A stretch of DNA of 64,000 bases from Blastocatellia bacterium (GTDB lineage: Bacteria; Acidobacteriota; Blastocatellia; Pyrinomonadales; Pyrinomonadaceae): contig PMSM01000009.1 in the NCBI GenBank assembly GCA_003168335.1, positions 1-64,000 on the forward strand, read 5' to 3'. Made by a program: the position numbers and the translations under genes. Of this stretch, positions 430 to 29,680 are shown piece after piece; position 1 is the stretch's first letter, and every line of letters starts with the position of its first letter. The notes below the pieces were generated by a model. That model saw nothing but the letters and a program-made list of their open reading frames with translations, ran no database searches and was not told where the DNA came from.

Positions 430-932
430 ATGATGGCGAAGAGAAAGCTGCTCGATCAAGTGAGCGATGTTGCTCGCTTCAGACATCTCAGCCTACGCAC
501 CGAAGAAGCCTACCGCAATTGGATCAAGCGCTACATCCTTTATCACGGCAAGCGTCACCCAAAAGAACTGGACGCCGAGCATGTGCGTTCCTTCCTTACC
601 CACCTCGCGGTGAACGAGAAGGTCGCTGCTTCGACCCAGAACCAGGCGTTCAACGCGCTGCTGTTTCTTTACCGGCAAGTGCTGAAGACGGAGCCGCTGA
701 ATATCGAAGGAGTCGAACGCGCGCGTCACTCGCGCAGGTTGCCGGTGGTCTTCACGAAGGCAGAGGCGACCGCCGTAATTGCCAAGATGAAAGGCGAGCA
801 TCAGTTGATTGCCGGATTGCTGTATGGCGCCGGGCTGCGAATCATGGAAGCGGTGCGGTTGCGGGTCAAAGATATCGACTTTGGGCGCGGCGAAATAACG
901 GTGCGCGACGGTTCACCCCGTGAGATAAATCT

Positions 933-1205
933 ATGAATGAATATTGTTATGTCTATGTCCTGCGTTCCCTGAAGGATCAAATGTTTTATGTGGGATTCAC
1001 GAAGAATCTGACGGGAAGAGTCGAAGCGCACAACGGAGGCCTGGTTCCTTCGACAAAGCGACGGACACCAATGGAACTTGTGTATTGGGAAGGGTGTCGC
1101 AACCAATCGGATGCCACTGACCGAGAAAAATACTTGAAGTCTTCGTGGGGAAAGCGATACATCAAGAATAGATTGCGAAACTATCTCACGGGGTTCACCC
1201 CGTGA
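933..1205 (+). CDS. Small GIY-YIG nuclease of the insertion element
   Basis: A single-domain GIY-YIG endonuclease of 90 aa (UvrC-like / COG2827 type). The GIY-like strand is YVYVLRS near residue 6, the YIG-like strand FYVGFTKN near 19-26, the catalytic Arg is in GRVEAHN near 29, and the metal-binding Glu is in DREKYLKS near 70. The last residues (YLTGFTP) and the stop are encoded by the palindrome at 1182-1209. The codons are more A+T-rich than in the flanking integrase, which suggests transfer. Freestanding proteins of this kind are common and often of unknown role. Here it is the sole gene of an inserted element, so it may promote the element's mobility; that is an inference. Confidence 0.85.
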   Translation: MNEYCYVYVLRSLKDQMFYVGFTKNLTGRVEAHNGGLVPSTKRRTPMELVYWEGCRNQSDATDREKYLKSSWGKRYIKNRLRNYLTGFTP

Positions 1206-1233
1206 GATAAAGAACGAAAGCTATCTCACGGGG
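1182..1233. repeat. Hairpin plus terminal repeat of the GIY-YIG element
   Basis: TATCTCACGGGG occurs at 1182-1193 and 1222-1233, and its complement CCCCGTGAGATA at 916-927 and 1198-1209. The central pair forms a 12-bp stem with a 4-base loop. The four half-sites alternate around the nuclease gene, as a duplicated hairpin would. Confidence 0.85.
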
Positions 1234-1714
1234 TAAAGGCGAGCAGGATCGAGTGACGATGCTGCCGAGGGCTTTAAAAGAACCACCGTCGCGGCAAATC
1301 GGAGCCGCGTGTAAGTTGCACGTGGATGACTTGAGGCGAGATTTCGGCGCGGTGTACTTGCCGTATGCTTTGGAAAGAAAATACCAGAATGCCGCGAAGG
1401 ATTTTATCTGGCAATACCTGTTTCCCGCGGAGAAGCTCTCAGCCGATCCACGTTCGGGAAAGACCAGACGGCATCATGTTTCTGAGCAGAGCGTGCAACG
1501 CGCCGTAAAGTCGGCGTTGCGGGCGGCCGGAGTAAGGAAGAATGGAAGCTGCCACGCGTTTCGGCACAGCTTTGCAACTCACCTTCTGGAAGACGGATAT
1601 GACATTCGTACCGTCCAGGAACTACTGGGTCACAAAGACGTCCGTACGACGATGATTTACACGCACGTTCTTAATAAAGGCGGCAGAGGAGTGCGGAGTC
1701 CGCTGGATAGTTAG

Positions 1715-6058: not shown

Positions 6059-6744
6059 CAGCGCTCGCCGCTTATCATTAACGACCCGGCGCGCCTGTAT
6101 TCTTCATAATCCTCCCGGCTCTTGAAAGAGCTGCCGGTGTAATTCTCGGGGATCGGCGTGGGATCAATTAACCGCTCATCGCGAATGTTCGTGAAACCCG
6201 CGTCGATGAATAACCTACGATAGTCGTCTGTGCTGAGAAGTTCGACCGGAACATTCAACGTATCAATCCACTGATGCGTGGCTTCGTTTTCCCAATAAAG
6301 ATCCACGACCGCGACGAATACGCCGCCCGGCTTCAGCACCCGGTGAATCTCTGCCAACGCCCGCGGAATATCCCGGTAGTAATAGAGCGACTCCATGGAA
6401 AATGCATGCGTGAATTCATTGTCGCTAAAGGGCAGTCGCTCGGCGCTGGCTGTTTCGAAGTCGACGTGAGGAAACGACATGGAAGATTCACGAGCGATAC
6501 GAATCATCTCATCGGAAATATCGATGCCGGTTACGCGACCTTTGATCGCAGAGCCCGCCAACAAACGACTCGCCCATCCCGATCCACAGCCAACATCCAG
6601 CACGCGCGCACTGGCCGGGACGCGCATGCGCTCGATTGCCTGCGTGCCGACTGGGCGATGTCCCTTCTCCATGCTCTCGCCTTTGCCGGCGCGGGCCCAT
6701 TGGTTGAATTCGATGCGGAGTTGCTCTTGCGGATCGTTAGTCAT
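6058..6744 (-). CDS. Class I SAM-dependent methyltransferase
   Basis: A 228-aa methyltransferase of the Methyltransf_11/UbiE-like type. The SAM-binding motif I is VLDVGCGSGWASRLLA near residue 45, motif II is VTGIDISDEMI, and the post-motif segment is EIHRVLKPGGVFVAVVDLYW. The C-terminal part shows no family-specific sequence that would name a substrate. The start at ATG 6744 is chosen because the longer frame (to 6786) overlaps the upstream peptidase gene, which ends at 6762. Confidence 0.82.
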   Translation of the reverse strand: MTNDPQEQLRIEFNQWARAGKGESMEKGHRPVGTQAIERMRVPASARVLDVGCGSGWASRLLAGSAIKGRVTGIDISDEMIRIARESSMSFPHVDFETASAERLPFSDNEFTHAFSMESLYYYRDIPRALAEIHRVLKPGGVFVAVVDLYWENEATHQWIDTLNVPVELLSTDDYRRLFIDAGFTNIRDERLIDPTPIPENYTGSSFKSREDYEEYRRAGSLMISGER

Positions 6745-9238: not shown

Positions 9239-9279
9239 TTAATTGTAAATAATAATTTGGGATAAACGCTTCGCGCAAA

Positions 9280-9495
9280 GTCCGCGCAGCGGACGTATGA
9301 TAATAGCCCGGCACTTTAGTGCTGGGATTCGGAATCAGTAAGACCCAACAGTCCGTGAAACGGACGGCTGAAACTGATCTAGCAAACCGAAGCCCTGGCC
9401 TCAGTCGTCGGCTTCGCGGACTTTGGCTTCTTACTACGCCACTGATCCCAGCGAATGAATCGCCGGGCTCTTATCATACTTCCGCTGCGCGGACT
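9280..9495. repeat. Nested hairpin element, copy 1 of 3
   Basis: The ends are inverted: GTCCGCGCAGCGGAC (9280-9294), TATGATAATAGCCCGGC and a hairpin with ACTTTAGT core on the left. The right side has CGCCGGGCTCTTATCATA and TCCGCTGCGCGGAC (9481-9494). Inner hairpins include GTCCGTGAAACGGAC (9351-9365). The same plan is seen at 15698-15891 and 16565-16881. The right end overlaps the last codons of the kinase gene. Confidence 0.8.
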
Positions 9496-15697: not shown

Positions 15698-15891
15698 AGC
15701 GCCGAAGGCGCGCAATGCAATAGCCCAGCGCAACGCGCTGGGTGCAGCGTCATTTTCGCGCCTAAGCCCTGAAAGGGCGAAATAAATTTGCTTGAATCGT
15801 TATGGCGCCCCTTCAGGGCTCAGGTCGCAATCGAGTTGCCCAAAACCCTGGGCTCACGCCCAGGGCTATTACATTCCGCGCCTTCGGCGCT
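15698..15891. repeat. Nested hairpin element, copy 2 of 3
   Basis: The inverted termini are AGCGCCGAAGGCGCG (15698-15712) and CGCGCCTTCGGCGCT (15877-15891). Inside lie ATAGCCCAGCGCAACGCGCT paired against CCCTGGGCTCACGCCCAGGG plus CTATT. A central pair is built from AAGCCCTGAAAGGGCG and CGCCCCTTCAGGGCTC. Each arm is itself a hairpin, so the unit can fold as a branched structure. Confidence 0.85.
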
Positions 15892-16564: not shown

Positions 16565-16881
16565 GTCCGCGAAGCGGACGATTCGAAAATAGCCCAGCAC
16601 TTCAGTGCTGGGGAACGGATCATATTAAGAAACCAAAGCCCGTGAAACGGGCGACAGAAGTTACAGAACCGGGAGCGGTAGCGACCGGGTGCGAGCACTG
16701 AAGTTGAACACTTGATCTTGAATCTCCGACATTCGTCGCAAGTTGAGCATAGCATCCACTCGCTACGGCTCGGGGCTCCGCACACTCTCTGCCGTCCGCT
16801 TTGCGAACTATTAGACAAACTTAAACGCGTCGCTCCCAGCGATAAATCGCTGGGCTATTTTCGATCGTCCGCTTCGCGGAC
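16565..16881. repeat. Nested hairpin element, copy 3 of 3
   Basis: The inverted ends are GTCCGCGAAGCGGAC (16565-16579) and GTCCGCTTCGCGGAC (16867-16881). Next inside are AAAATAGCCCAGCAC with a TTCAGTGCTGGG return, paired with CCCAGCGATAAATCGCTGGG plus CTATTTTCGA. AAGCCCGTGAAACGGGC is an inner hairpin. No gene is seen in the 372-base gap that this element fills, upstream of the O-methyltransferase. Confidence 0.85.
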
Positions 16882-16921
16882 TGAAAACCCGAAGCCTGAT
16901 CTTCGGTGACGAGATCCTCTT

Positions 16922-19302: not shown

Positions 19303-21372
19303 TTACACTTGTTCATTCACCGGCAACCTCACTTCAAACCTCGCGCCCTCGCCGTTCTGTGATGGCGCCAGCCGCGCCGAGCCGCCCGCTTCTTCCATGC
19401 GCTTGCGCACAATCGCGAGCCCGAGACCTGTGCCGCGTTGACGGGTAGTAAAGAACGGTTCCCAAATTTTTGTTTGCATCTCAGGCGCGATACCCGGCCC
19501 GCTGTCGTTAACTGCAAAGATGATCTCGTGGCCGTCAACAAAGGATTCAATGACCACGCTGCCGCCCGCGGGAGTTGATTGCAAAGCATTCAGGATGAGA
19601 TTTGATAGCGCGTCGCGAATCGCGGCGGTTTGCACTCCGTCCAGTTCCAGCGCTCCACCAACACGACATTGCAAGGTGATGTTGCGTTCGTCCGCCTCAG
19701 CCCGAAAGAGACTGTTGACGCTTCGCAATAACTCGTCCGCGCGGCAAGGAGGGGCGGCCGGTGTTCTCTTGCTGGCGAAGCTGAGCAACTGTGTGACGCT
19801 CTTGCTCAGACGATCAGTCTCACCGACGATCAAACTTAGGTCGCGCGCATGCTGACTGTTGAGTGCTTCGTCCTCGCTCATGACCTGAGCAATCGACTTG
19901 ATCGCGGATAGCGGGTTCTTCACTTCATGCGCCACGGTGGCGGCCATCTGACCCAGCGCCGCCAGTCGCTCACCTTCAGCTACCTTTCGCTCCAGCCGCA
20001 CGTTTTCCTCAACCAGCCGGCAATCTTGGATGGCGATCGCCACCTGACCGGCGAGCACTTCCAGCACCGCGCGCACATCCGGCGTCAAAGCACTCGGCGA
20101 GGCTTCAATCAACAGCAGTCCGGCGTTTCGATCTTCGCGACGCAGAACATAGGCGACGTTGTACTTCTGCTCCCCGAAAGCCAAATCGTCTTCCAACTCG
20201 GTTATGCCGGCTGTCTCTGCCGTGTGTAAAAGATCTCCTGTCCATCGCGACTCGTCAGCAATCCCTGGCGTTGATTTCATCTCATCGTCGGTTGGCCGCA
20301 AGACAATCTTCACGCGCCGTAAGGAGAGCGCACTGGCGGTTTGTGATTCAATGAAGGCAAGTAACTCGGGAAGGCGGCGATACTGTCCAGCATGAGCGCC
20401 GATGTGAGCCACAACTTCGCGGTAGAGCGCGGTCTCGCGTTCGAACAGCGCGCGAAATCGCTTTTCTAACCAGCCGCGCAAAGGGGCCGCGAGCAAAGTC
20501 AACGCGAGGATAAGAATCGCTTCGATGACGCCGGCGCGCAGACCGTAGCGCGAGTTGGCCCAGTCGCTGATGCGTCGTATCCCATAAAGATAAACGGCGA
20601 GCACCAGCGCCGCGAACGTCGCGACAATCAAACTCTCTTTAATGATCAGTTCAAGAAAACGATAGCGATAGATGTAGTACGCCAGCAGGGCCGAAGGCAG
20701 AAGCGATCCCAGATTAGCGAAGGTCTGGAGATAAAGACCCGCCGCAGTTCCCTTGCCCAGCCCGAGCCCCAGAGACGCCAGGATCAAAACAGCGATGGCG
20801 ATGAACGAGCCGGCGAGGGTGCGCAGAGTTCGCCGTTCACTTCGCGACGAAGAGCGCCGCGCGACTAATAGTTCAGTAATGGCCACGAGCGCCAGCGAAT
20901 AAACGGCCCAGAGCGCAAACGGCAGGACGAACTGGGAGAGCTTCGCGATCATTGGTTGGTACGGTCCCATCCAGATGTGCGGTATTGTGACCAGCAGGAA
21001 CAGACAGGGAATGTAGGAAAGATAAACCCGAACGCGCTCAGTGCGAGTGAGACCACGTCCTTGCGCACTGGCCCACAGGTGTATGTGAACGTGCAGCAAA
21101 AGTGAGTAGCAAACGGTGATACTGATGACGGCTATGGTATTGGCTAGCCGCAGGACGGGAACCCACCGCGCCACGTCCAATCCGAGCATGCTGCGCAGAG
21201 TGACGATCAGATTCCCAGCGTGCCAACCGGCCATGCACAAGCCCAAACTGAGGAGCAGGCGCTGAATGGGCACCAGCCCCAGACGCTGCTTGAACAGGAG
21301 ATACCCCATCCACAGCGGCAGCACCGCGCCAAGACTGTACCCGATAAGTTGGAGGGCTTCGAGAAGGGTCAT
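19303..21372 (-). CDS. Membrane sensor histidine kinase with GAF-like domain
   Basis: A 689-aa kinase. About seven N-terminal transmembrane helices span residues 5-300, then a GAF-like region (roughly 330-460). HisKA follows with the phosphoacceptor His in VAHEVKNPLSAIKS near 480, and a HATPase_c domain with NLILNALQST, NDSGPGIAP and GTGLGLAIVRKRMEEAGG. This core is NtrB/PrsK-like and fits an NtrC-type partner, which lies two genes downstream. It borders the integron cassette array on its 5' side. Confidence 0.92.
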   Translation of the reverse strand: MTLLEALQLIGYSLGAVLPLWMGYLLFKQRLGLVPIQRLLLSLGLCMAGWHAGNLIVTLRSMLGLDVARWVPVLRLANTIAVISITVCYSLLLHVHIHLWASAQGRGLTRTERVRVYLSYIPCLFLLVTIPHIWMGPYQPMIAKLSQFVLPFALWAVYSLALVAITELLVARRSSSRSERRTLRTLAGSFIAIAVLILASLGLGLGKGTAAGLYLQTFANLGSLLPSALLAYYIYRYRFLELIIKESLIVATFAALVLAVYLYGIRRISDWANSRYGLRAGVIEAILILALTLLAAPLRGWLEKRFRALFERETALYREVVAHIGAHAGQYRRLPELLAFIESQTASALSLRRVKIVLRPTDDEMKSTPGIADESRWTGDLLHTAETAGITELEDDLAFGEQKYNVAYVLRREDRNAGLLLIEASPSALTPDVRAVLEVLAGQVAIAIQDCRLVEENVRLERKVAEGERLAALGQMAATVAHEVKNPLSAIKSIAQVMSEDEALNSQHARDLSLIVGETDRLSKSVTQLLSFASKRTPAAPPCRADELLRSVNSLFRAEADERNITLQCRVGGALELDGVQTAAIRDALSNLILNALQSTPAGGSVVIESFVDGHEIIFAVNDSGPGIAPEMQTKIWEPFFTTRQRGTGLGLAIVRKRMEEAGGSARLAPSQNGEGARFEVRLPVNEQV

Positions 21373-21477
21373 CAGAGACCTGACCGACGGTCGAGAGATC
21401 TGAATTGAACAGCCTTGAGGATATCACCATCACGGGAGGACTAAGGAGTCGGAGTGAGCGTAGTTAACGAGTTGGAA

Positions 21478-21565
21478 GGCAGCGTCCGAGTTAACCGGCG
21501 CGCCGATTAGCAACTGAAGTCATTGACGCCGACCACCCGACCCTTTGGCGCCCAACGAGTTGTCG
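21478..21565 (-). other. Degenerate attC site after the VOC-protein cassette
   Basis: On the minus strand CGACAACTCGTTGGGCGCC (R''/L'' side) follows the VOC gene stop by about 20 bases. It is later answered by CGCGCCGGTTAACTCGGACG and a decayed R' (CGCTGCC in place of CGTTAGGC). A second half-site-like word, CTTCCAACTCGTTAAC, lies just beyond (near 21462). The site is recognisable but eroded. Confidence 0.5.
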
Positions 21566-21586
21566 ATCGGCAGCCGGGCGATCACG

Positions 21587-21904
21587 TCAGCTGGTCAGAT
21601 TGTAAATCAGTCCAAATGGATCTCTGACGTAGCATCTGGGAAAGTCCGGTTCGTCTTTGATGATCTCGCAGCCTTCTTTCGTCAGCCGAGCTTTAGCCTC
21701 TTCGATATTCTCGACCGTGACTTCGAGTACCGGTCCGAGCTTTGGGCCCTGCTCAATGAAAAGGTTTATATGCGGGCCGTGGATACTGATTAGGTTAGGC
21801 GCCTCGGCAGTGATCTCGAACCCGAGCCCTCTGACGTAAAATGCCGCCGCTATTTTTGGGTCCGGCGCTTGAATCAGGATATCGGTGCCAAACTTGTTTC
21901 CCAT
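21587..21904 (-). CDS. VOC-superfamily (glyoxalase/bleomycin-resistance fold) protein, cassette-borne
   Basis: A 105-aa protein of the vicinal oxygen chelate fold. The N-terminal strand and helix read DILIQAPDPKIAAAFYVRGLGFE, with LISIHGPHINLFIEQ in the middle and the typical end CYVRDPFGLIYNLTS. VOC proteins include lyases, dioxygenases and antibiotic-binding proteins, and are common in integron cassettes. One repeat unit is present, so it would act as a dimer. The stop is about 20 bp from a degenerate attC. Substrate unknown. Confidence 0.82.
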   Translation of the reverse strand: MGNKFGTDILIQAPDPKIAAAFYVRGLGFEITAEAPNLISIHGPHINLFIEQGPKLGPVLEVTVENIEEAKARLTKEGCEIIKDEPDFPRCYVRDPFGLIYNLTS

Positions 21905-21936
21905 TAAGCCTCCCTTTTAAGAAATTCAAGACTGCC

Positions 21937-22046
21937 GCCTAACGTCAGAGTTCAGGTGGCGCGGCCGAACACCATTCAAGCAACGATCTCATGAACAGGT
22001 TTGAGAAACGCGCTGTTCCGCGTTCCGGTCTAACGAGTTGTTGGGC
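21937..22046 (-). other. attC site of the epimerase cassette
   Basis: The minus strand starts with GCCCAAC (R'', 22046-22040), followed by AACTCGTTAGACCGGAACG (L''), and ends with GCGCCACCTGAACTCTGAC (L') and GTTAGGC (R', 21943-21937). The boxes match RYYYAAC and GTTRRRY exactly. Length is 110 bp. The arms can pair into the single-strand hairpin used by integrases. Confidence 0.9.
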
Positions 22047-22082
22047 CGCGGTTTTTAGCATTCAGAGTACTCGCACTACCAT

Positions 22083-23237
22083 CTATTTCCTGCTGGCATG
22101 CCAGGCAGCCAATACTTCAGCTTCGCGTTCCGGCTTTATTCCTGCCCGCATTTTCAACTGTCTGCTGGTCGGCTGTTTTCTAAACCAATCGAGCGTGGCC
22201 CTTGTGGTGTCGTAGAGTGGACGAAATGTCAGTCCCTTGCTGACCGCCTTGTTGATATTCATCGTTGAATAACCAATCTCTGGCCCGTGTGGTGAAGTCC
22301 AGATCGGGATATCGTCGATGATTTTTTCGCTGCTGAGAAATTTGTCGTCTACCCAGGTGAACCGAGCATCAGAGTTCGTTGCTTTCTTGATCTCGTCAAG
22401 CATCCGCCCCATCGTCAACTTCGATTTAGGTCCGACGGCATTAAAGCTTCCGGTGGTGCCTTGCTCAACCATGCGCATAGTCCACTCAGCCAGATCGCGC
22501 GCGTCGATGATCTGAATCGGGTCGGCAGTAGTTCCGGGTGCTAATACCTCACCGCCGCGTTCGACGCGAACTGGCCAATAGGTAAACCGATCAGACTCAT
22601 CGCCGGGACCCACTATATACCCGGGACGAATGACTAGCGTCTTCCCCGGAAACCACTTTTCAGCTTCAGCTTCCGAAATCGCTTTGAGAGGTCCGTAAAG
22701 AGCAAAGTTGTTGGCGCGCATAGTCGCATTAGTCTCTCTCATCGGATCCGCTCCAGCATATTTCGCCAGCGGCGCGGTCTCATCCATTCCCGGCTTGCTG
22801 GTGTCTGCATAGACCGAAATCGTTGAAATGAAGACATAGCGATCGACATTGCCCTTCAGGATTTGCGCCGCATCGCGGACCCAAACTGGCAGGGTGGTTG
22901 GAATGTCGATGCATACATCCCAGGTTCTGCCTTTGAGCGCATCGAGTTTGCCGTTGCGGTCGCCGATTAACTGTTCGACTTCTTTTGGCAATTCACCGGG
23001 ATGCGTGCGGCCGCGATTGAACACAGTGACCTGGTGGCCCCGACTGAGCGCATACTTAACTTGAAATGGCCCCGTGAAGCCCGTGCCACCCAGAATCAGA
23101 ATGCGCAGACTCTTTGCAGCGCGGTTGGTAGTTCCGACTCTCGCTGAGAAGGCTGTTTTGCCGGTGATCAGATTCAAACCGGCAGTACCGCCGACCATGG
23201 CCGAGAGTTTGAGAAACATTCTTCTACTTATTGACAT
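22083..23237 (-). CDS. Exported NAD-dependent epimerase/dehydratase-family protein, cassette-borne
   Basis: A 384-aa short-chain dehydrogenase-fold protein of the extended (epimerase) type. SISRRMFLKL at the N-terminus is a Tat-type signal, so it is probably exported. The nucleotide-binding motif is ILILGGTGFTGPFQ near residue 47. A YGPLKA sequence near 180 occupies the place of the YxxxK catalytic motif. It resembles secreted isoflavone-reductase-like or CSP41-like epimerases. At 1155 bp it is long for a cassette gene. Its substrate is unknown. Confidence 0.8.
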   Translation of the reverse strand: MSISRRMFLKLSAMVGGTAGLNLITGKTAFSARVGTTNRAAKSLRILILGGTGFTGPFQVKYALSRGHQVTVFNRGRTHPGELPKEVEQLIGDRNGKLDALKGRTWDVCIDIPTTLPVWVRDAAQILKGNVDRYVFISTISVYADTSKPGMDETAPLAKYAGADPMRETNATMRANNFALYGPLKAISEAEAEKWFPGKTLVIRPGYIVGPGDESDRFTYWPVRVERGGEVLAPGTTADPIQIIDARDLAEWTMRMVEQGTTGSFNAVGPKSKLTMGRMLDEIKKATNSDARFTWVDDKFLSSEKIIDDIPIWTSPHGPEIGYSTMNINKAVSKGLTFRPLYDTTRATLDWFRKQPTSRQLKMRAGIKPEREAEVLAAWHASRK

Positions 23238-23382
23238 CTAGTTCGCTCCCAAGAGATTTCAGAGTACCGCCATCAGCACCCTTCGCCCAAATTAACCGGG
23301 CGGCTGACAAAAGCGAGTTGTGCGACGCTCAGGGCATTAACTTATGCTGACTGTTCTCAGATCGAGCACGTCGCCCACCGAC

Positions 23383-23457
23383 AGCAACCGGTACGGTCGT
23401 CCCGGCGAACCATTCAAGTCTCGGATAAAGCTGGTTGAGCCAGAGAGGTTGAGTGGC
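23383..23457 (-). other. Possible eroded attC after the collagen-like cassette
   Basis: Just past the collagen-like gene stop the minus strand reads CCACTCAACCTCTCTGGCTC, in the place of R''/L'', and later GACTTGAATGGTTCGCCGGG, resembling the centre and L' of the intact sites. No clear R' box is present. Another AT-poor 100 bases to 23280 hold no gene. Confidence 0.3.
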
Positions 23458-24038
23458 TATGGACTAACCACCATCACATTGAATTGTGCTCCGGTCGCAA
23501 TGTCGCCGCCGGCGACGATCCAGCGTCCAGCGGGGCAAGTTCCAAAACTCGCACTGCCGGTATAGGTCAAATTCATATTTGAATTGGGATTGGTGTTTGA
23601 TCGTCCGGCATTAATTCCGACTATCGCCGTCACAAATACCAACGCGTTAGCGTTACCGTTTATCGCGGGGTTGTCCATAACGCTGAAACTATTGAATGGA
23701 CCACAGGTGTTAGCAACTGTGCGCGTGTGCCTGAAGGTTACTATGTTTGCCCCAGAGCATGCCGGTCCTTTATCGCACGTTCCCTGAGGTCCCACCGGTC
23801 CCTGAGGTCCGGCTGGCCCCTGAGGCCCCACGACGCCCCAGCTGATTGGGGTTTCGTGGTACCGGCAATCGCTTACCGAGTTGACCCGTCGAAGGTTCCC
23901 GTTCGCGTTGTTATAGCAAGCCTGAATCGTACTCGGAGCCGGGGCCGCGTACACCGTTACAAAGGCTATCAGTGCCGTCGCACAAAGAAACGTAAGCAAG
24001 CAAATTATTGTCAGCGGACTATTCTTAAGCGTCTTCAT
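23457..24038 (-). CDS. Secreted collagen-like repeat protein, cassette-borne
   Basis: A 193-aa exported protein. A hydrophobic signal sequence (residues 8-32) is followed by CYNNANGNLRRVNSVSDCRYHETPISW, then Gly-Pro-Gln triplets (GPQGPAGPQGPVGPQG, near 73-88) and a C-terminal beta-rich domain with Cys residues. This layout is frequent among Acidobacteriota surface proteins. The triplets suggest a short trimeric stalk. Role unknown. It begins 40 bases after the stop of the next gene, too close for an intact attC between them. Confidence 0.75.
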   Translation of the reverse strand: MKTLKNSPLTIICLLTFLCATALIAFVTVYAAPAPSTIQACYNNANGNLRRVNSVSDCRYHETPISWGVVGPQGPAGPQGPVGPQGTCDKGPACSGANIVTFRHTRTVANTCGPFNSFSVMDNPAINGNANALVFVTAIVGINAGRSNTNPNSNMNLTYTGSASFGTCPAGRWIVAGGDIATGAQFNVMVVSP

Positions 24039-24060
24039 TTGGGAACTCCTCTCAGGTCGC

Positions 24061-24077
24061 CGGTCGGCGCGTTAGGT
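24061..24077 (-). other. attC-like half site
   Basis: The minus strand shows ACCTAAC (24077-24071), an exact RYYYAAC box, then GCGCCGACCG, immediately after the stop of the 24079-24483 gene. The expected partner arm is missing, because the next gene starts at 24038. This could be a truncated site, leaving two cassettes fused. Confidence 0.45.
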
Positions 24078-24078
24078 A

Positions 24079-24483
24079 TCAATCACATGCAAAACGAAAG
24101 CCGGTAACCAAGGCATAGTTTTTACGCCGTGGTAATTCCTCCCCGGCCGTCGTGACACGTAAGCGATTGCCGTAGGCATCTGTAAAGAGAAACGAGCAGG
24201 CCGCGACACCTGTACCCGCACATGATTCAACTTCGACGTAGCCTTTGCGCCAGAAGAGTCGACCATTCCCATTCGAGATGTCGGGATCAATACCAGAGTC
24301 GTTGAAAGACTTTGTTTGCCAGGGCTGCCAGCCAGCAGCCAAGAGCTTCTTTCTGGCTCTGTGATAACTTAACTCCGTGATGGCCGGAAGCTTCGCATGC
24401 CTTTTTGGAGCGCAAGGTTTATCTTGCGCTAGAACGCTACCAGCTGCGAAGCCGCAGATTAGAAATGCAAGCAAAGTTTTCAT
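24079..24483 (-). CDS. Small secreted protein of unknown function, cassette-borne
   Basis: A 134-aa protein with a signal peptide (MKTLLAFLICGFAAGSVLAQ). A PASTA-like beginning, AITELSYHRARKKLLAAGW, is followed by a domain with paired Cys residues (VESCAGTGVAACSFLF) and a conserved-looking end (GFRFACD). The start at ATG 24483 follows a TGGAGAAG site. A longer frame to 24552 would translate the attC site. No family is recognised. Confidence 0.7.
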   Translation of the reverse strand: MKTLLAFLICGFAAGSVLAQDKPCAPKRHAKLPAITELSYHRARKKLLAAGWQPWQTKSFNDSGIDPDISNGNGRLFWRKGYVEVESCAGTGVAACSFLFTDAYGNRLRVTTAGEELPRRKNYALVTGFRFACD

Positions 24484-24508
24484 GTCTTCTCCAGGAGTGA
24501 GGTTAGCC

Positions 24509-24623
24509 GTCGAACGGTTGAGTTGAACGGGCGGCGCGGCAATTACATTCAACCGTCGAATCTATCAATCAAGTTGCGAAACACGTTCAGCGCGCTCCGG
24601 TCCAACGATTTACTATGTTGCGC
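24509..24623 (-). other. attC site
   Basis: The minus strand begins GCGCAAC (R'', one mismatch from RYYYAAC, 24623-24617), then CGTTGGACCGGAGCGCG (L''). It ends CGCCGCCCGTTCAACTC (L') and GTTCGAC (R', 24515-24509; degenerate). Length 115 bp. The R'' box overlaps the last codons of the upstream cassette gene. Confidence 0.8.
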
Positions 24624-25069
24624 TCATCGAACGGCGTGTCCTTTTGGATTTCGACACCGAATGATAGCAACCAATTACAGATGGTCTTTCGGGAGCGTCT
24701 GTCACCCATGACAACATATCAACCCTCCATTCACGACAGTTGGGACCATAGATGAGTTCGACGCGATCTGGTTCCACTTTCCCGGATTCCGTCAGATATC
24801 TTTTCAAGCTACCGGCGCGCGCTTTTGCCCCGTAGGAGATCAAGTAGCCCTTAAAATGCGGATTGTCCTTTAAGAACAGGGCGGAAACCGTCAAGCGATT
24901 CGTTCTGCGTTTTGATGCTTACTGATTTGTCATATACGTAGAAGAGGGAGCCATAATCGACAGCTACGTTGGGTTCCGTCTTCTGTGCTTGGTTAGAAGT
25001 TTGCGGCTGCTGCGCCACACATAGACCAAATAGCACAAGAAGTACGCTCAGACATTCAACAGCCCGCAC
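24613..25069 (-). pseudogene. Frameshifted secreted protein gene, cassette-borne
   Basis: Two overlapping frames look like one gene. The upstream part has a signal peptide (VRAVECLSVLLVLFGLCVAQ, GTG at 25069) and continues to VSIKTQNE. The downstream frame picks up at RLTVSALFLKDNPHFKGYLIS and runs to the stop at 24613. A one-base change near 24895-24905 would join them into about 150 aa. The GYLISYGAKA, then ERVELIYG/REWRVDM-type pattern, resembles an Acidobacteriota family of exported proteins with a GYxIxYG strand. It is either a real frameshift, recoding, or a sequencing error. Confidence 0.65.
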
Positions 25070-25101
25070 CAGGTAATGTCGACAGCGGAAATCAGTAAGC
25101 A

Positions 25102-25207
25102 ACCTAACATAGCAGTTGACCGGGCGGCGCGTTTTCATTCAACCCTCGCCGCACCAAACATCTTAGGAAACACGCTCCCGCCGCTCCGGTCCAACGAGTT
25201 GTTGGGC
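25102..25207 (-). other. attC site (best preserved in the window)
   Basis: The minus strand starts GCCCAAC (R'', 25207-25201), then AACTCGTTGGACCGGAGCGG (L''), and ends GCGCCGCCCGGTCAACTGC (L') and GTTAGGT (R', 25108-25102). Both boxes match consensus. Length 106 bp. It starts 7 bases after the stop of the 25214 gene. Confidence 0.92.
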
Positions 25208-25213
25208 GGCGCG

Positions 25214-25582
25214 CTACTTCAACCTTTCGAACTTAATGGTTCCCTCGCCATGAGATCCGTGCTTGATGGCGCCGGACATTGTGTCGCCGTCAACTCGCAG
25301 ATCGACCTTGTCGAAAGCCACCGTCCGCCCCGGCTGTGGCGACGTCTTCATGGTGAGCTTTCCCTTCTTGAGCTTGCCAGTGATGGGAATCGGATCCTTC
25401 TCGCTCGGCCCCACCCAACCAGTCACGACGTCACCAGTTTGCCTGAGCGATGCGATCCCGATGATCGTGCCATCCGCTGTAGAGATTGTGACCCGCCACC
25501 TTCCCGTCACATCGGTCGCGAAAGTTGCAGGGGCCATTAGTGCCAACAACAAGAGACTCAGTAGCACACGTTGACTTCTCAT
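25214..25582 (-). CDS. Secreted beta-rich protein of unknown function, cassette-borne
   Basis: A 122-aa protein with a signal peptide (MRSQRVLLSLLLLALMAPA, cleavage after TFA). The mature part alternates short beta strands: TDVTGRWRVTISTADGTIIG, DVVTGWVGPSEK, and KLKKGKLTMK. The pattern resembles lipocalin-like or DUF-type small barrels. The start at ATG 25582 follows a GGAGG site; the longer frame to 25615 is not needed. It is the first gene of the preserved array. Function unknown. Confidence 0.72.
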   Translation of the reverse strand: MRSQRVLLSLLLLALMAPATFATDVTGRWRVTISTADGTIIGIASLRQTGDVVTGWVGPSEKDPIPITGKLKKGKLTMKTSPQPGRTVAFDKVDLRVDGDTMSGAIKHGSHGEGTIKFERLK

Positions 25583-25860
25583 GAATGCCCTCCTTACGTG
25601 GGTGGCGCACAGCAAGCACGCTGGTCCAACCTACCTCCGATGGAAGCGCCCCCAACAGCAATAGACGATGCCGTGGGTGCCCCTCGTCTTCACGCTTCAC
25701 TTCCACACGTCCGCCCAACATGTATTGTGCGACGGATCCGTCACGCAAGTACGGAATACATGATCTTATAGCTCAGTCCCGTGTGAGCCTAAGAATGATA
25801 ACGCCCTCCCTGACGGTCGGGCTACTGCCCCGACCTCCCGGCGCGCTGCTCAGCTCAGCG
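25583..25860. other. Upstream end of the cassette array
   Basis: No convincing gene is seen. The minus strand has a GTTGGGC box (25719-25713) that fits an R' site, possibly the remnant of the attC of a lost upstream cassette. A GCCC/GGGC hairpin near 25804-25830, with GGTCGGGCTACTG, repeats the one at 1863-1890. Confidence 0.35.
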
Positions 25861-28008
25861 TCAGTCCTTGCCCGACTTCAGACCACGCTCTTCAAGCAGC
25901 GGCTCGACGCTCGGACCGCGGCCGCGGAAAGCGCGATACAGCGTCGCAGCATCCGCCGTGCCTCCGGGCGCAAGGATCATGTCGCGATAGCGTTGCCCGT
26001 TCGCACGGTTCATCCCGCCGTGTTCCTTGAACCAGTAGTAAGCGTCGTCGTCGAGGACCTCGCTCCAAAGGTATGCGTAGTAACCGGCGGCGTAGCCGTT
26101 GTCCCAGATATGCGAGAAGTAGGCCGTGTGATATCGCGGCGGCACTTGCGGCATATCGATGTGAAAGTTACGCAACGCCGTCTGCTCAAAGACGTCCAGA
26201 TCCTGTTGCGGCTGATCCGGCGTCAGGCTGTGCCAGGCCATGTCGAGCAGAGCGGCGGCGAGGTATTCCGTCGTCGCATAACCCTGATTGAAGGTGCGCG
26301 CCTTCTTGATCTTTTCGACCAGCGCCTGGGGCATCGGCTTACCGGTTTGATAGTGCTTCGCATAGTTGGCAAACACCGCCGGATCCAACGCCCAGTGCTC
26401 GTTGAACTGCGACGGAAACTCGACGAAGTCGCGCGGTACGCCGCCGAGGGTGGGATAGCGCACAGTTGAGAACATGAAGTGCAGGGCGTGTCCGAACTCA
26501 TGAAACATCGTGGTCACGTCATCGAAGCTCAGCAGGGTCGGCTGACCCGGAGCGGGCTTGGTAAAATTCGTGCAATTGAAGACCACGGGCTTGGTTCCGA
26601 GCAGACGGCTCTGATCGACAAAGCTGTCCTCCCAGGCGCCGCCGTTCTTATTCGATCGTGAGAAGTAGTCACCATAGAAGAGGGCGAGTGACTTGCCGTC
26701 AGCATCGAACACTTCGAACACGCGCACATCGGGCTGATAGACAGGTATGTCCTTGCGCTCTTTGAATGTGAGGCCGTAGAGCTTGTTCGCGGCAAAGAAG
26801 ACGCCGTCAAAAAGCACATGCTCCAGCTCGAAATAAGGCTTCACCTGCGATTCGTCGAGATCATATTCGGCTTTGCGCACTTTTTCAGCGTAGAACTCCC
26901 AGTCAGCAGCGCCGAGTTGGAAGCCGCCGTTCTGCGCGTCGATCAATTTCTGCATCTTCGCCACTTCGCCACGTGCTTTGGCCGTCGCTGCCGGCACCAG
27001 ATCGGTCATTAATTTTTCGGCGTTCTGCGGCGTCTTGGCCATCTGGTCGTCCAGAACGTAGGTCGCGTAGTTCGGATAGCCAAGCAGCTTCGCGTGTTGC
27101 GCGCGCAGTTGCGCCAGGCGCATGACGATCGCTTTCGTGTCGTTGGGGCCGCCGCGGTTGCCGCGAAGTATCGAAGCGTTAAAGAGCTTCTCGCGAAGAG
27201 CGCGGTTCTCCAGTGATGAGAGGGCGGGCTGCTGGGTCGTGTTCCGCAGACTCAGCACCCACTTGCCGTCGAGCTTCTGCTCCTTGGCTGCCTCGGCGGC
27301 GGCCGCGATATCGCCGTCGCTTAACCCCGCCAGCTCGGCCCGGTCAGAGACGATGACCGCGGAAGCGTTGACGTCGGCGAGCACCTTGTCGGTGAATTGG
27401 GTCGTCAGCTTCGACTCTTCCTGATTGAGGGCGCGGAGAGTTGTCTTGTCGGCCTCCGAGAGCTGGGCGCCGGCGCGAACGAAGTTCAGATAGTAACGCT
27501 CCACCAGAAACTTGCTCTCGGGATCCAGCTTGAGGGCGGCCCGCTGATCGTACAACGTCTTCACCCGGGCAAAGAGTTTTGAGTTCAGGTAGATGGTGTC
27601 CTGATGCGCGGCCAGCTTCGGCGCTTCCTCGGCCTTGATCTTTTGCATCGCGTCGCTGGTATTTGATTGAGAGAGGTTGAAGAACACCTTGGTGACGCGG
27701 GTCAGGAGATCGCCCGTCCGCTCCATCGCCTCGATGGTGTTGGCAAACGTTGGCGCGCCCGCGTTGTTGGCGATCGTCTCGATCTCGGCGATCTGCCGCT
27801 TCATTCCTTCTTCGATCGCCGGCGTGTAATCGCTATCCGTAATCTTATCGAACGGAGGCGCCTGAAACGGTAGCGTGCTGGCGGTAAAGAACGGATTTGA
27901 GGCGGCGACGTGAACCGTGGCGTTAGCGGTTCGCGACGGCGCAAACTGAATGACCAACAGACCCGGGACGACGAGTGCGACGAACTGTCTGATCCGATCA
28001 AATCTCAT
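25861..28008 (-). CDS. dcp: Exported M3-family metallopeptidase (peptidyl-dipeptidase Dcp type)
   Basis: A 715-aa zinc peptidase. An N-terminal hydrophobic leader (FVALVVPGLLVIQFAPS) suggests export. The zinc motif HEFGHALHFMF sits near residue 480 with the downstream Glu ligand in FVEFPSQFNEHW. YWFKEHGGMNRANGQRYRD and the family's C-terminal ARG-rich end are present. Length is normal for Dcp, which removes dipeptides from C-termini. It borders the cassette array and appears monocistronic. Confidence 0.93.
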   Translation of the reverse strand: MRFDRIRQFVALVVPGLLVIQFAPSRTANATVHVAASNPFFTASTLPFQAPPFDKITDSDYTPAIEEGMKRQIAEIETIANNAGAPTFANTIEAMERTGDLLTRVTKVFFNLSQSNTSDAMQKIKAEEAPKLAAHQDTIYLNSKLFARVKTLYDQRAALKLDPESKFLVERYYLNFVRAGAQLSEADKTTLRALNQEESKLTTQFTDKVLADVNASAVIVSDRAELAGLSDGDIAAAAEAAKEQKLDGKWVLSLRNTTQQPALSSLENRALREKLFNASILRGNRGGPNDTKAIVMRLAQLRAQHAKLLGYPNYATYVLDDQMAKTPQNAEKLMTDLVPAATAKARGEVAKMQKLIDAQNGGFQLGAADWEFYAEKVRKAEYDLDESQVKPYFELEHVLFDGVFFAANKLYGLTFKERKDIPVYQPDVRVFEVFDADGKSLALFYGDYFSRSNKNGGAWEDSFVDQSRLLGTKPVVFNCTNFTKPAPGQPTLLSFDDVTTMFHEFGHALHFMFSTVRYPTLGGVPRDFVEFPSQFNEHWALDPAVFANYAKHYQTGKPMPQALVEKIKKARTFNQGYATTEYLAAALLDMAWHSLTPDQPQQDLDVFEQTALRNFHIDMPQVPPRYHTAYFSHIWDNGYAAGYYAYLWSEVLDDDAYYWFKEHGGMNRANGQRYRDMILAPGGTADAATLYRAFRGRGPSVEPLLEERGLKSGKD

Positions 28009-28132
28009 AAGCGATCCAGATCCCCCTGCGCGGATGATTTGACGAACTTTCTAATTAGAACTGCCGCGCTGTTTTTTGGCACTACGATAACGTGCACCTT
28101 CGCGGTCGTGATCTATTTTGCCGATCGCCGGA

Positions 28133-29680
28133 CTATTGCCCCAGCGTGCCCAGCGTGATTTCAGTCCTGCGATTCTTCGCCCGACTAGCAACCGTCGTGT
28201 TTGGCGCTACCGGATTCGCCCCGCCCAGACCGCTGGCCTGAATCCGCGTAACATCGACACCGGCCGCTGCAAGTCGCTCAGACAAAACTCTTGCCCGATC
28301 CTGTGTCAGTTGTTGCAGCGCCGCTTCGTCGCCGCGATTGTCGGTGAAGGACTCAATTGAGATTTGATAATTGGGATTGTTGGCGAGCAGGGCGCCAATC
28401 TGATCGAGCTTTGCCGCCGCTGCCGCGACCAGATTCGCGGACCGTGGACTTGCCCAGATCGCCTCAGCCAGGACGAGCGTCATGCCGCGGTTGCCGTCAC
28501 GCACTGCGCCGAAACGGGCCAGGGTCTGCTTCAGCGTCTCGGCGGCGGCGCGCTGATCGACGGCGCGCTTTTCATTCACGCGGCTTGCGTCCTCAGCCTG
28601 CTTCTCGCCTTCGATGCGGGCCAGTCTGACCTTCGCATCTTCAGAGTCAGCCCGCACCGTTTGTATTTCTTCGCGCAGCCGCGCGATTTCGGTGCGCGCA
28701 TCCCGTAACTTCTCCGTCGCATTCACCGCGTCGCGTTCGGCGAGTTCGCGCCCGTGACGTTCTGTATCCAGTTCTGCTTTCAAGCGGGTAATTTCCTGGT
28801 TGGCGGTATCCGCATTGTCTTCGGCCTTGCGCACGGCGAGATCGCGGCGCTCAATTTCTTCGCGGCGCTCGCGCGATGCGCGACGCACCAGGGCCATGTC
28901 TTCCGCTTTCGCTCCACTACTGATTGCCTGCCGAGCGAGGATGTCGATTTCTCGTTCAGCCTGCCTCATGCGCAAGGCACTTTCGGCCTGTTGTAGATCG
29001 GCTTCGGCGGTGCGCAGTTCATTAGGCGCATCGCGCTCCGCTCCCGCATAGCGCGCCAGATTAATCGCCTGCCGCGCACCGAGCAGCACTACCGGGATAT
29101 CGCGAAAGTCCGACTCGGCAATCTGAGGTACGCTCGCATCACGGAAATAATCACTGGTGTTACCGATGTACTGAATTTTCGAGGTCTCAACCTGTGCGTC
29201 CCGTATCGTAGCCGGCGCCATGTTCTCCATCACCACCATACGGCTGGGCGAGTGAACAAGAAAGTGTGGCTCAGCGGTGATTACCAAAGCGAAAGTTTGC
29301 AGGGAAGTGGTCACGTCAATCTTCGAATCGATCAGACCGCTGCCGCTGCGCTTTATCTCGCCGAGGTTATCGACGTGCCCATCTGGCGAAATCGCCCACA
29401 GAACATACGTCGTGTACACGCCCCCGAGTTCGTATGCGCGCGGCAGGTTATCGAGGTGTAGCTCAACCCGAGTGCCGCGACGGCTCTGCCGTCTTACCTT
29501 CGCAGAGCCCTTCAGACGCGGCAGACGGGTGGTGCCATGAAACGGGACGTCGATGGTCTGGTCCAGAGGGTACGTGATCGCGATCGTAGTACGCCGCGTA
29601 TCGTTCTGCGCAAACGCGCCGCTGGCGGAAATAAGAACCAAACACGCAAAAACTGCGAATGACTTAAGCGATCTGTTCAT
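28133..29680 (-). CDS. OmpA-domain protein with long coiled coil
   Basis: A 515-aa exported protein. Signal peptide MNRSLKSFAVFACLVLISAS is cut after GAFAQ. A beta-rich N-terminal region (40-230) precedes a long charged coiled coil (about 240-400; Glu/Arg/Ala-rich). A C-terminal OmpA-like peptidoglycan-binding domain follows (IESFTDNRGDEAALQQLTQD, then NRRTEITLG). It probably anchors an envelope structure to peptidoglycan. The start at 29680 fits the signal peptide; the upstream frame to 29809 does not. Confidence 0.85.
   Translation of the reverse strand: MNRSLKSFAVFACLVLISASGAFAQNDTRRTTIAITYPLDQTIDVPFHGTTRLPRLKGSAKVRRQSRRGTRVELHLDNLPRAYELGGVYTTYVLWAISPDGHVDNLGEIKRSGSGLIDSKIDVTTSLQTFALVITAEPHFLVHSPSRMVVMENMAPATIRDAQVETSKIQYIGNTSDYFRDASVPQIAESDFRDIPVVLLGARQAINLARYAGAERDAPNELRTAEADLQQAESALRMRQAEREIDILARQAISSGAKAEDMALVRRASRERREEIERRDLAVRKAEDNADTANQEITRLKAELDTERHGRELAERDAVNATEKLRDARTEIARLREEIQTVRADSEDAKVRLARIEGEKQAEDASRVNEKRAVDQRAAAETLKQTLARFGAVRDGNRGMTLVLAEAIWASPRSANLVAAAAAKLDQIGALLANNPNYQISIESFTDNRGDEAALQQLTQDRARVLSERLAAAGVDVTRIQASGLGGANPVAPNTTVASRAKNRRTEITLGTLGQ

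Follow-up and report, generated by a model that had tools for sequence, protein, structure and literature searches.

Clusters of attC sites lacking integron-integrases (CALINs), as defined with IntegronFinder (PMC9024848), are recognized by at least two attC sites within about 4 kb, cassette-like genes in one orientation and no adjacent integrase. Such a cluster lies in a 64-kb stretch of contig PMSM01000009.1 from an acidobacterium of the family Pyrinomonadaceae; we call the whole stretch the window, and it had earlier been interpreted from its letters alone (the sequence-only reading). The interval 21478-25207 is a CALIN, a small structure of an already known kind that departs from the definition in nothing fundamental: three attC sites lie inside 3.3 kb, and the nearest integron integrase gene (intI) is 20 kb off and split. 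The array comprises up to six integron cassettes in a single orientation and ends in the attC type used by the family's integrons. A complete integron would carry a functional intI and an attI site beside its array; here intI is split, the array is far from it and on its 3' side, and the sites are fewer and more eroded. What sets the window array apart from other CALINs is that it shares a contig with a broken intI and comes from a phylum with few described examples.

Off-target insertion of cassettes has been demonstrated mainly in laboratory systems. Insertion at attG sites was described by Loot et al. 2024, as relayed in PMC12901181 and PMC12444791, and secondary integrase sites follow a GNT rule (PMC10127599). 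The genus studied here shares with these systems a cassette at G^TT in a sister genome (G116), matched by a collinear empty relative, and single-attC loci dispersed over the genome; as far as those two accounts of attG insertion go, the difference is that the events here are natural and fixed between species of one acidobacterial genus, as opposed to laboratory recombination. In Xanthomonas, CALINs coexist with inactivated intI genes: an ancestral integron has repeatedly lost its integrase, and about half of the genomes carry CALINs elsewhere in the chromosome. They recur at a few conserved loci (PMC12444791), whereas the window array is absent at its locus in all relatives tested.

Identification of the attC sites rests on a covariance model (R1) trained on 24 aligned attC found beside intact integrases of related genomes, plasmid references among them, with no site from the window or its own genome in the training set. 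The training structure covaries strongly, as is evident from its high pairing (91.8% of cells, compared with 66% when shuffled and 28-39% when slid). Across the window R1 finds three attC, all on the minus strand and 106, 110 and 110 bp long, and the rest of the 64 kb scores below 12 bits. In the controls, 273 kb drawn from other soil genomes contained no match at E<=0.05, and 123 kb of syntenic sequence from relatives gave one non-significant match (13 bits, E 0.59), so that the three window sites (60, 43.5 and 35.1 bits) stand against no significant match in 396 kb. An attC model specific to Acidobacteria was published in 2021 (PMC8352920); it concerns the same phylum and was built from chromosomal acidobacterial attC, whereas R1 was built new from intI-adjacent arrays of the Pyrinomonadaceae. 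A strict descriptor, combining the full attC consensus with a bulged L''/L' arm, matches one place in the window, 25102-25207 on the minus strand, and 0-1 places in shuffled versions; applied to class 1 integron plasmids, it recovers the attC of aadA1, aadB and GES and two more, all with the same geometry (spacers of 5 and 6 nt, and the extra base at position four of L''). Other approaches were set aside: a relaxed descriptor was swamped by chance matches everywhere except at 25102-25207, the Kovacikia plasmid integron was of little use as a reference because it yielded one attC, and unconstrained single-strand folding was uninformative, failing to recover the attC structure, which both R1 and the descriptor of fixed geometry recover.

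The best site, attC 1, scores 60.0 bits (E 3.9e-14) with R1 and 27.1 with the relaxed descriptor, where the best of four shuffles reaches 24.6. It is the only site complete in all boxes with both arm pairs intact: its L'' and L' form 8/8 pairs around one extrahelical base, and its layout (R'', 5 nt, L'' with one extra base, then L', 6 nt, R') is identical to that of class 1 attC such as those of aadA1 and GES. Sites of this type are predicted recombination substrates of IntI, through their folded bottom strand. The core site at 25713-25719 is the exact complement of the attC 1 R'' box GCCCAAC, as expected of the two ends of one cassette. At 24509-24618 (attC 2) the R'' box is lost (ACATAGT) and R' carries one mismatch, while L'' and L' keep 7/8 pairs by inspection; at 21937-22046 (attC 5) it is the L'/L'' pairing that has decayed, and the arms no longer pair as in attC 1. 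The R''/R' consensus RYYYAAC ... GTTRRRY with complementary arms is found at 25102-25207 and at 21937-22046. Two or three further attC remnants are known through box words common to the good sites. The minus strand has 3 copies of the box word ACAACTCGTTRG, against 0.03 expected, and the exact arm word GCCGCCCGGTTAA at 23292-23304 supports the attC 4 remnant; the remnants near 21.5 and 23.3 kb fall below R1 detection (5 bits or less) and score as noise. We give no weight to the heptamer ACCTAAC at 24071-24077 as evidence for an attC 3, since its perfect pairing with the R' box GTTAGGT at 25102 has a chance of about 1/16 given the consensus. The array has a G+C content of 0.537, compared with 0.58-0.59 in its flanks.

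Table 1. Features of the CALIN and of the split integrase region (window positions)
Feature	Position	Strand	Evidence or remarks
Core site GTTGGGC	25713..25719	-	upstream edge of array, left boundary of cassette 1
Cassette 1 gene, small secreted protein	25214..25582	-	ORF (open reading frame); weak sub-threshold Pfam match
attC 1, intact	25102..25207	-	R'' GCCCAAC, L'' GTTGGACCG, L' CGGTCAAC, R' GTTAGGT
Cassette 2 gene	24613..25138	-	ORFs 24851-25138 and 24613-24894 in different frames
attC 2	24509..24618	-	35.1 bits, E 2.6e-7; R'' decayed, L''/L' and R' kept
Cassette 3 gene	24079..24486	-	ORF without Pfam match
R''-like heptamer ACCTAAC	24071..24077	-	possible last remnant of attC 3; from sequence only
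Cassette 4 gene, secreted DUF7452 protein with collagen-like stretch	23457..24038	-	Pfam PF24249, E 5e-9
attC 4 remnant, variable loop deleted	23285..23326	-	R''-like GTCGCAC and AACTC ... GCCGCCCGGTTAA and TTTGGGC
Cassette 5 gene, NAD-dependent epimerase/dehydratase family, Tat-like signal	22083..23237	-	Pfam PF01370
attC 5	21937..22046	-	43.5 bits, E 1.3e-9; R'' and R' intact
Cassette 6 gene, VOC/glyoxalase-like	21587..21904	-	Pfam PF00903
attC 6 remnant	21470..21571	-	R''/L'' half alone recognisable; ACAACTCGTTGG at 21552-21563
Integron integrase intI	448..1711	+	TIGR02249 halves at 448-915 and 1220-1711
GIY-YIG endonuclease-like ORF inside intI insert	933..1205	+	Pfam PF01541, E 3e-16; inverted repeat ends
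attC 5' half, cut by contig edge	1..55	-	28.8 bits; normal (upstream) cassette side of intI

What the sequence-only reading observed in the array holds, and its interpretation is partly supported. Its call of a CALIN is borne out by the three R1 sites and the lack of an adjacent integrase, and the covariance search that it suggested as a check does find attC sites. Six same-strand genes are indeed present, as six minus-strand ORFs between and around the attC sites, the second of them split over two frames. Of its three complete attC, all three are detected by the model and one, 25102-25207, is complete in every box; the at least two eroded sites that it described correspond to the remnants recognized by box words. 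The array runs slightly past the 25207 end given to it, to the core site. A gradient from intact to eroded sites, read as a record of array age, is not supported, since the site at 21.9 kb outscores the one at 24.5 kb and those at 24.07 and 23.3 kb are the most eroded, so that decay is not monotonic along the array. That integrons are little studied in the phylum is partly true, given the published Acidobacteria model mentioned above.

Cassette 2 is probably frameshifted, judging from the split of its ORF; an intact homologue was not found. Cassette 1 has no homologue in 118 genomes of the family and was dropped as a means of finding this array elsewhere. Homologues of the epimerase gene occur in soil Acidobacteria, Verrucomicrobia and Gemmatimonadetes, and the nucleotide homology breaks off at the gene ends, as for a captured cassette: 12 nt ahead of the start codon on one side and, on the other, 13-15 nt within the stop end. 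We rejected this gene as proof of cassette traffic because none of 30 homologous loci has an attC.

In ten informative relatives the OmpA gene and the histidine kinase gene that flank the locus are kept on one contig stretch, and in none of the ten does an attC lie between them. The two genes are directly adjacent in G115; unrelated genes separate them in G116 and G117 (about 2 kb) and in G118 (6.6 kb). This gap (window 21372-28133, compared with loci L130-L133) is a variable spot in the genus, filled here by an M3 peptidase gene and the CALIN. With the array absent between OmpA and kinase in relatives, the six genes are not an old operon and the region is an insertion; the conserved gene order that would have spoken for an ordinary operon is not seen. 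The M3 peptidase gene bordering the array sits elsewhere in relatives; in G115 and G117 a small antitoxin-like ORF, a DUF1697 gene or both come after it. The sister genome G116 has a single 833-bp cassette between the orthologous M3 peptidase gene and the small antitoxin-like ORF, and the attC of this cassette is 83% identical to 25102-25207. Removing the 833 bp leaves GTG^TTAGGC, and the joined flanks are collinear with the empty G115 site GTG^ATACGC. The G116 cassette thus shows what attG-like insertion calls for, a GWT target at both junctions and a relative in which the site is empty, and its position at G^TT fits the GNT rule (PMC10127599) as well as the attG route. At the window array, absent in the ten relatives, the upstream core site is present and the downstream junction is eroded.

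The broken integrase described in the sequence-only reading is confirmed, with intI split in two, and so is its remark that the array is on the side of intI where cassettes do not normally sit. The gene is interrupted at about 922-1231 by an element of some 300 bp, with recognisable intI sequence on both sides, and the insert (window 915-1235) carries the inverted repeats TATCTCACGGGG / CCCCGTGAGATA. This split intI is the sole integron integrase of the genome; the genome's single other GIY-YIG match sits in a 639-aa frame, presumably uvrC. An R1 search of the genome's other attC regions together with the window found half an attC at the edge of the contig, C6 in our numbering, on the normal side of intI. 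Another contig, C1, starts with the matching 3' half, of the same subfamily, followed by at least five attC. The integron's own, primary array probably lies on C1, the C6/C1 junction being deduced from the two halves and not assembled. With attC halves at the C6 edge and the C1 start, the window CALIN would be a separate, ectopic element, one of about 13 dispersed loci. The 20 kb between intI and the array hold ddl, arginase, regulator and kinase genes. Four matches to the Acido-Lenti-1 RNA (RF01687), whose function is unknown, lie at 9279-9326, 15698-15742, 15846-15891 and 16835-16882 of the window.

In the genome as a whole, the attC found by R1 number about 35, spread over about 13 loci (contigs C1, C2, C4, C6, C7, C13 and C14), 31 of them at E<2e-4 among the 35 matches listed. 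Two of the loci with a single attC, one behind yidC and the other at the stop codon of a pilin gene, resemble the G116 insertion as far as they could be resolved. The yidC locus, on C7, is a good single-attC candidate whose gene is absent in 6/6 relatives compared, and since the upstream junction is unreadable we did not use it as proof. Between yidC and a RibD-like gene, several congeners (L148, about 6260-6430 on the minus strand, L197, L194 and L193) have in common a repeat in which AT-rich linkers join four short, GC-rich hairpins (CGTCCCGTA.GGGACG ... GCCCGTTTACGGGC ... GCTCCTNCGGAGC ... GCCGCTACGCGGC). In this family of soil acidobacteria integrons are the norm: attC occur in 84/118 genomes and all 29 genera, integron-integrase matches in 44/119 genomes (E 1e-40), and several intI copies per genome occur. 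Three genomes (G001, G025 and G101) have at least 32 attC matches each and no integron-integrase match at E 1e-40, through either draft-assembly loss or the existence of integrase-free cassette reservoirs. In the congener G115 (contig C16, locus L190, 3990-9290) intI is also broken, its sequence falling into two overlapping ORFs. On its 3' side lie seven or more attC, oriented as intI, the opposite of the usual layout.

We think it fairly likely that the window array was placed by IntI outside attI in an attG-like manner, enlarged, displaced together with the M3 peptidase gene and frozen after intI was split. The lineage's IntI would insert cassettes outside attI by recombining the bottom-strand hairpin of an attC with a G^WT attG-like site behind the M3 peptidase gene, and later cassettes would join through attC x attC recombination. 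A rearrangement would then carry the peptidase gene, together with the array, into the gap that separates OmpA from the histidine kinase, the GIY-YIG element would split intI such that the array is no longer shuffled, and attC sites and at least one gene would decay after this freezing. For the window array we can only infer such an insertion, and with it the order of events, because the M3 peptidase gene has moved as well. Several observations count against this origin: the downstream junction is too eroded for a target triplet to be read; the two flanks come from different ancestral loci, which calls for a rearrangement besides the insertion; and with cassette 1 lacking homologues and epimerase homologues lying outside cassettes, mobility of these genes is not demonstrated. 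Proximity to intI is uninformative, as with about 13 loci we estimate that one would fall less than 25 kb from intI in some 13% of genomes, and we discarded the link between this distance and origin as statistically empty.

Three other explanations have to be set beside an attG-like origin. The array could be the remnant of a complete second integron at this place whose own integrase was deleted, a CALIN as a degraded integron, and its eroded sites and the several intI copies per genome known in the family are compatible with this. But the OmpA-kinase interval of the window contains no integrase fragment (the contig's only two strong TIGR02249 matches are the halves at 0.4-1.7 kb), 0/10 relatives have attC, intI or other integron structure at the locus, and G116 has a single-cassette insertion that is free of integrase, so we regard a second integron as unlikely. 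It is also possible that part of the nearby integron's primary array was shifted across intI by inversion or another chromosomal rearrangement: intI is just 20 kb away, the M3 peptidase gene and the array sit at a rearrangement relative to relatives, and G115 too has a cassette array on the 3' side of intI. This strikes us as improbable, given that the intervening 20 kb are ordinary chromosome, that about 12 other loci, mostly on other contigs, would need the same explanation, and that the upstream edge is a single core-site cassette junction behind the M3 peptidase gene and not a cut array. An ordinary gene cluster with chance inverted repeats, or repeats resembling repetitive extragenic palindromes, and no integron structure at all would account for the unremarkable unconstrained single-strand folds (z about -0.2 to -1.5, best strand) and for the two to three claimed sites that R1 cannot detect. 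Set against it are three matches to an independently trained model with E down to 4e-14, spacing identical to class 1 attC, controls without a significant match and a clear integron integrase in the genome, and we consider it very hard to sustain.

The kind of object is known, and its value lies in the comparative setting, with dispersed cassettes, empty sites and broken integrases in one genus. We speculate, more tentatively than for the window array itself, that the family's IntI may routinely sow cassettes across the chromosome at attG-like G^WT sites, and that most of them may sit outside the integron, at loci with a single attC or a small CALIN, and stay fixed after intI loss. If true, the genus would be a natural and datable record of off-target cassette integration between species. 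Through its scattered single cassettes, empty sister sites and broken integrases, where cassettes land and how often become questions that can be asked in nature, as does the question of whether CALINs are degraded integrons or ectopic insertions.

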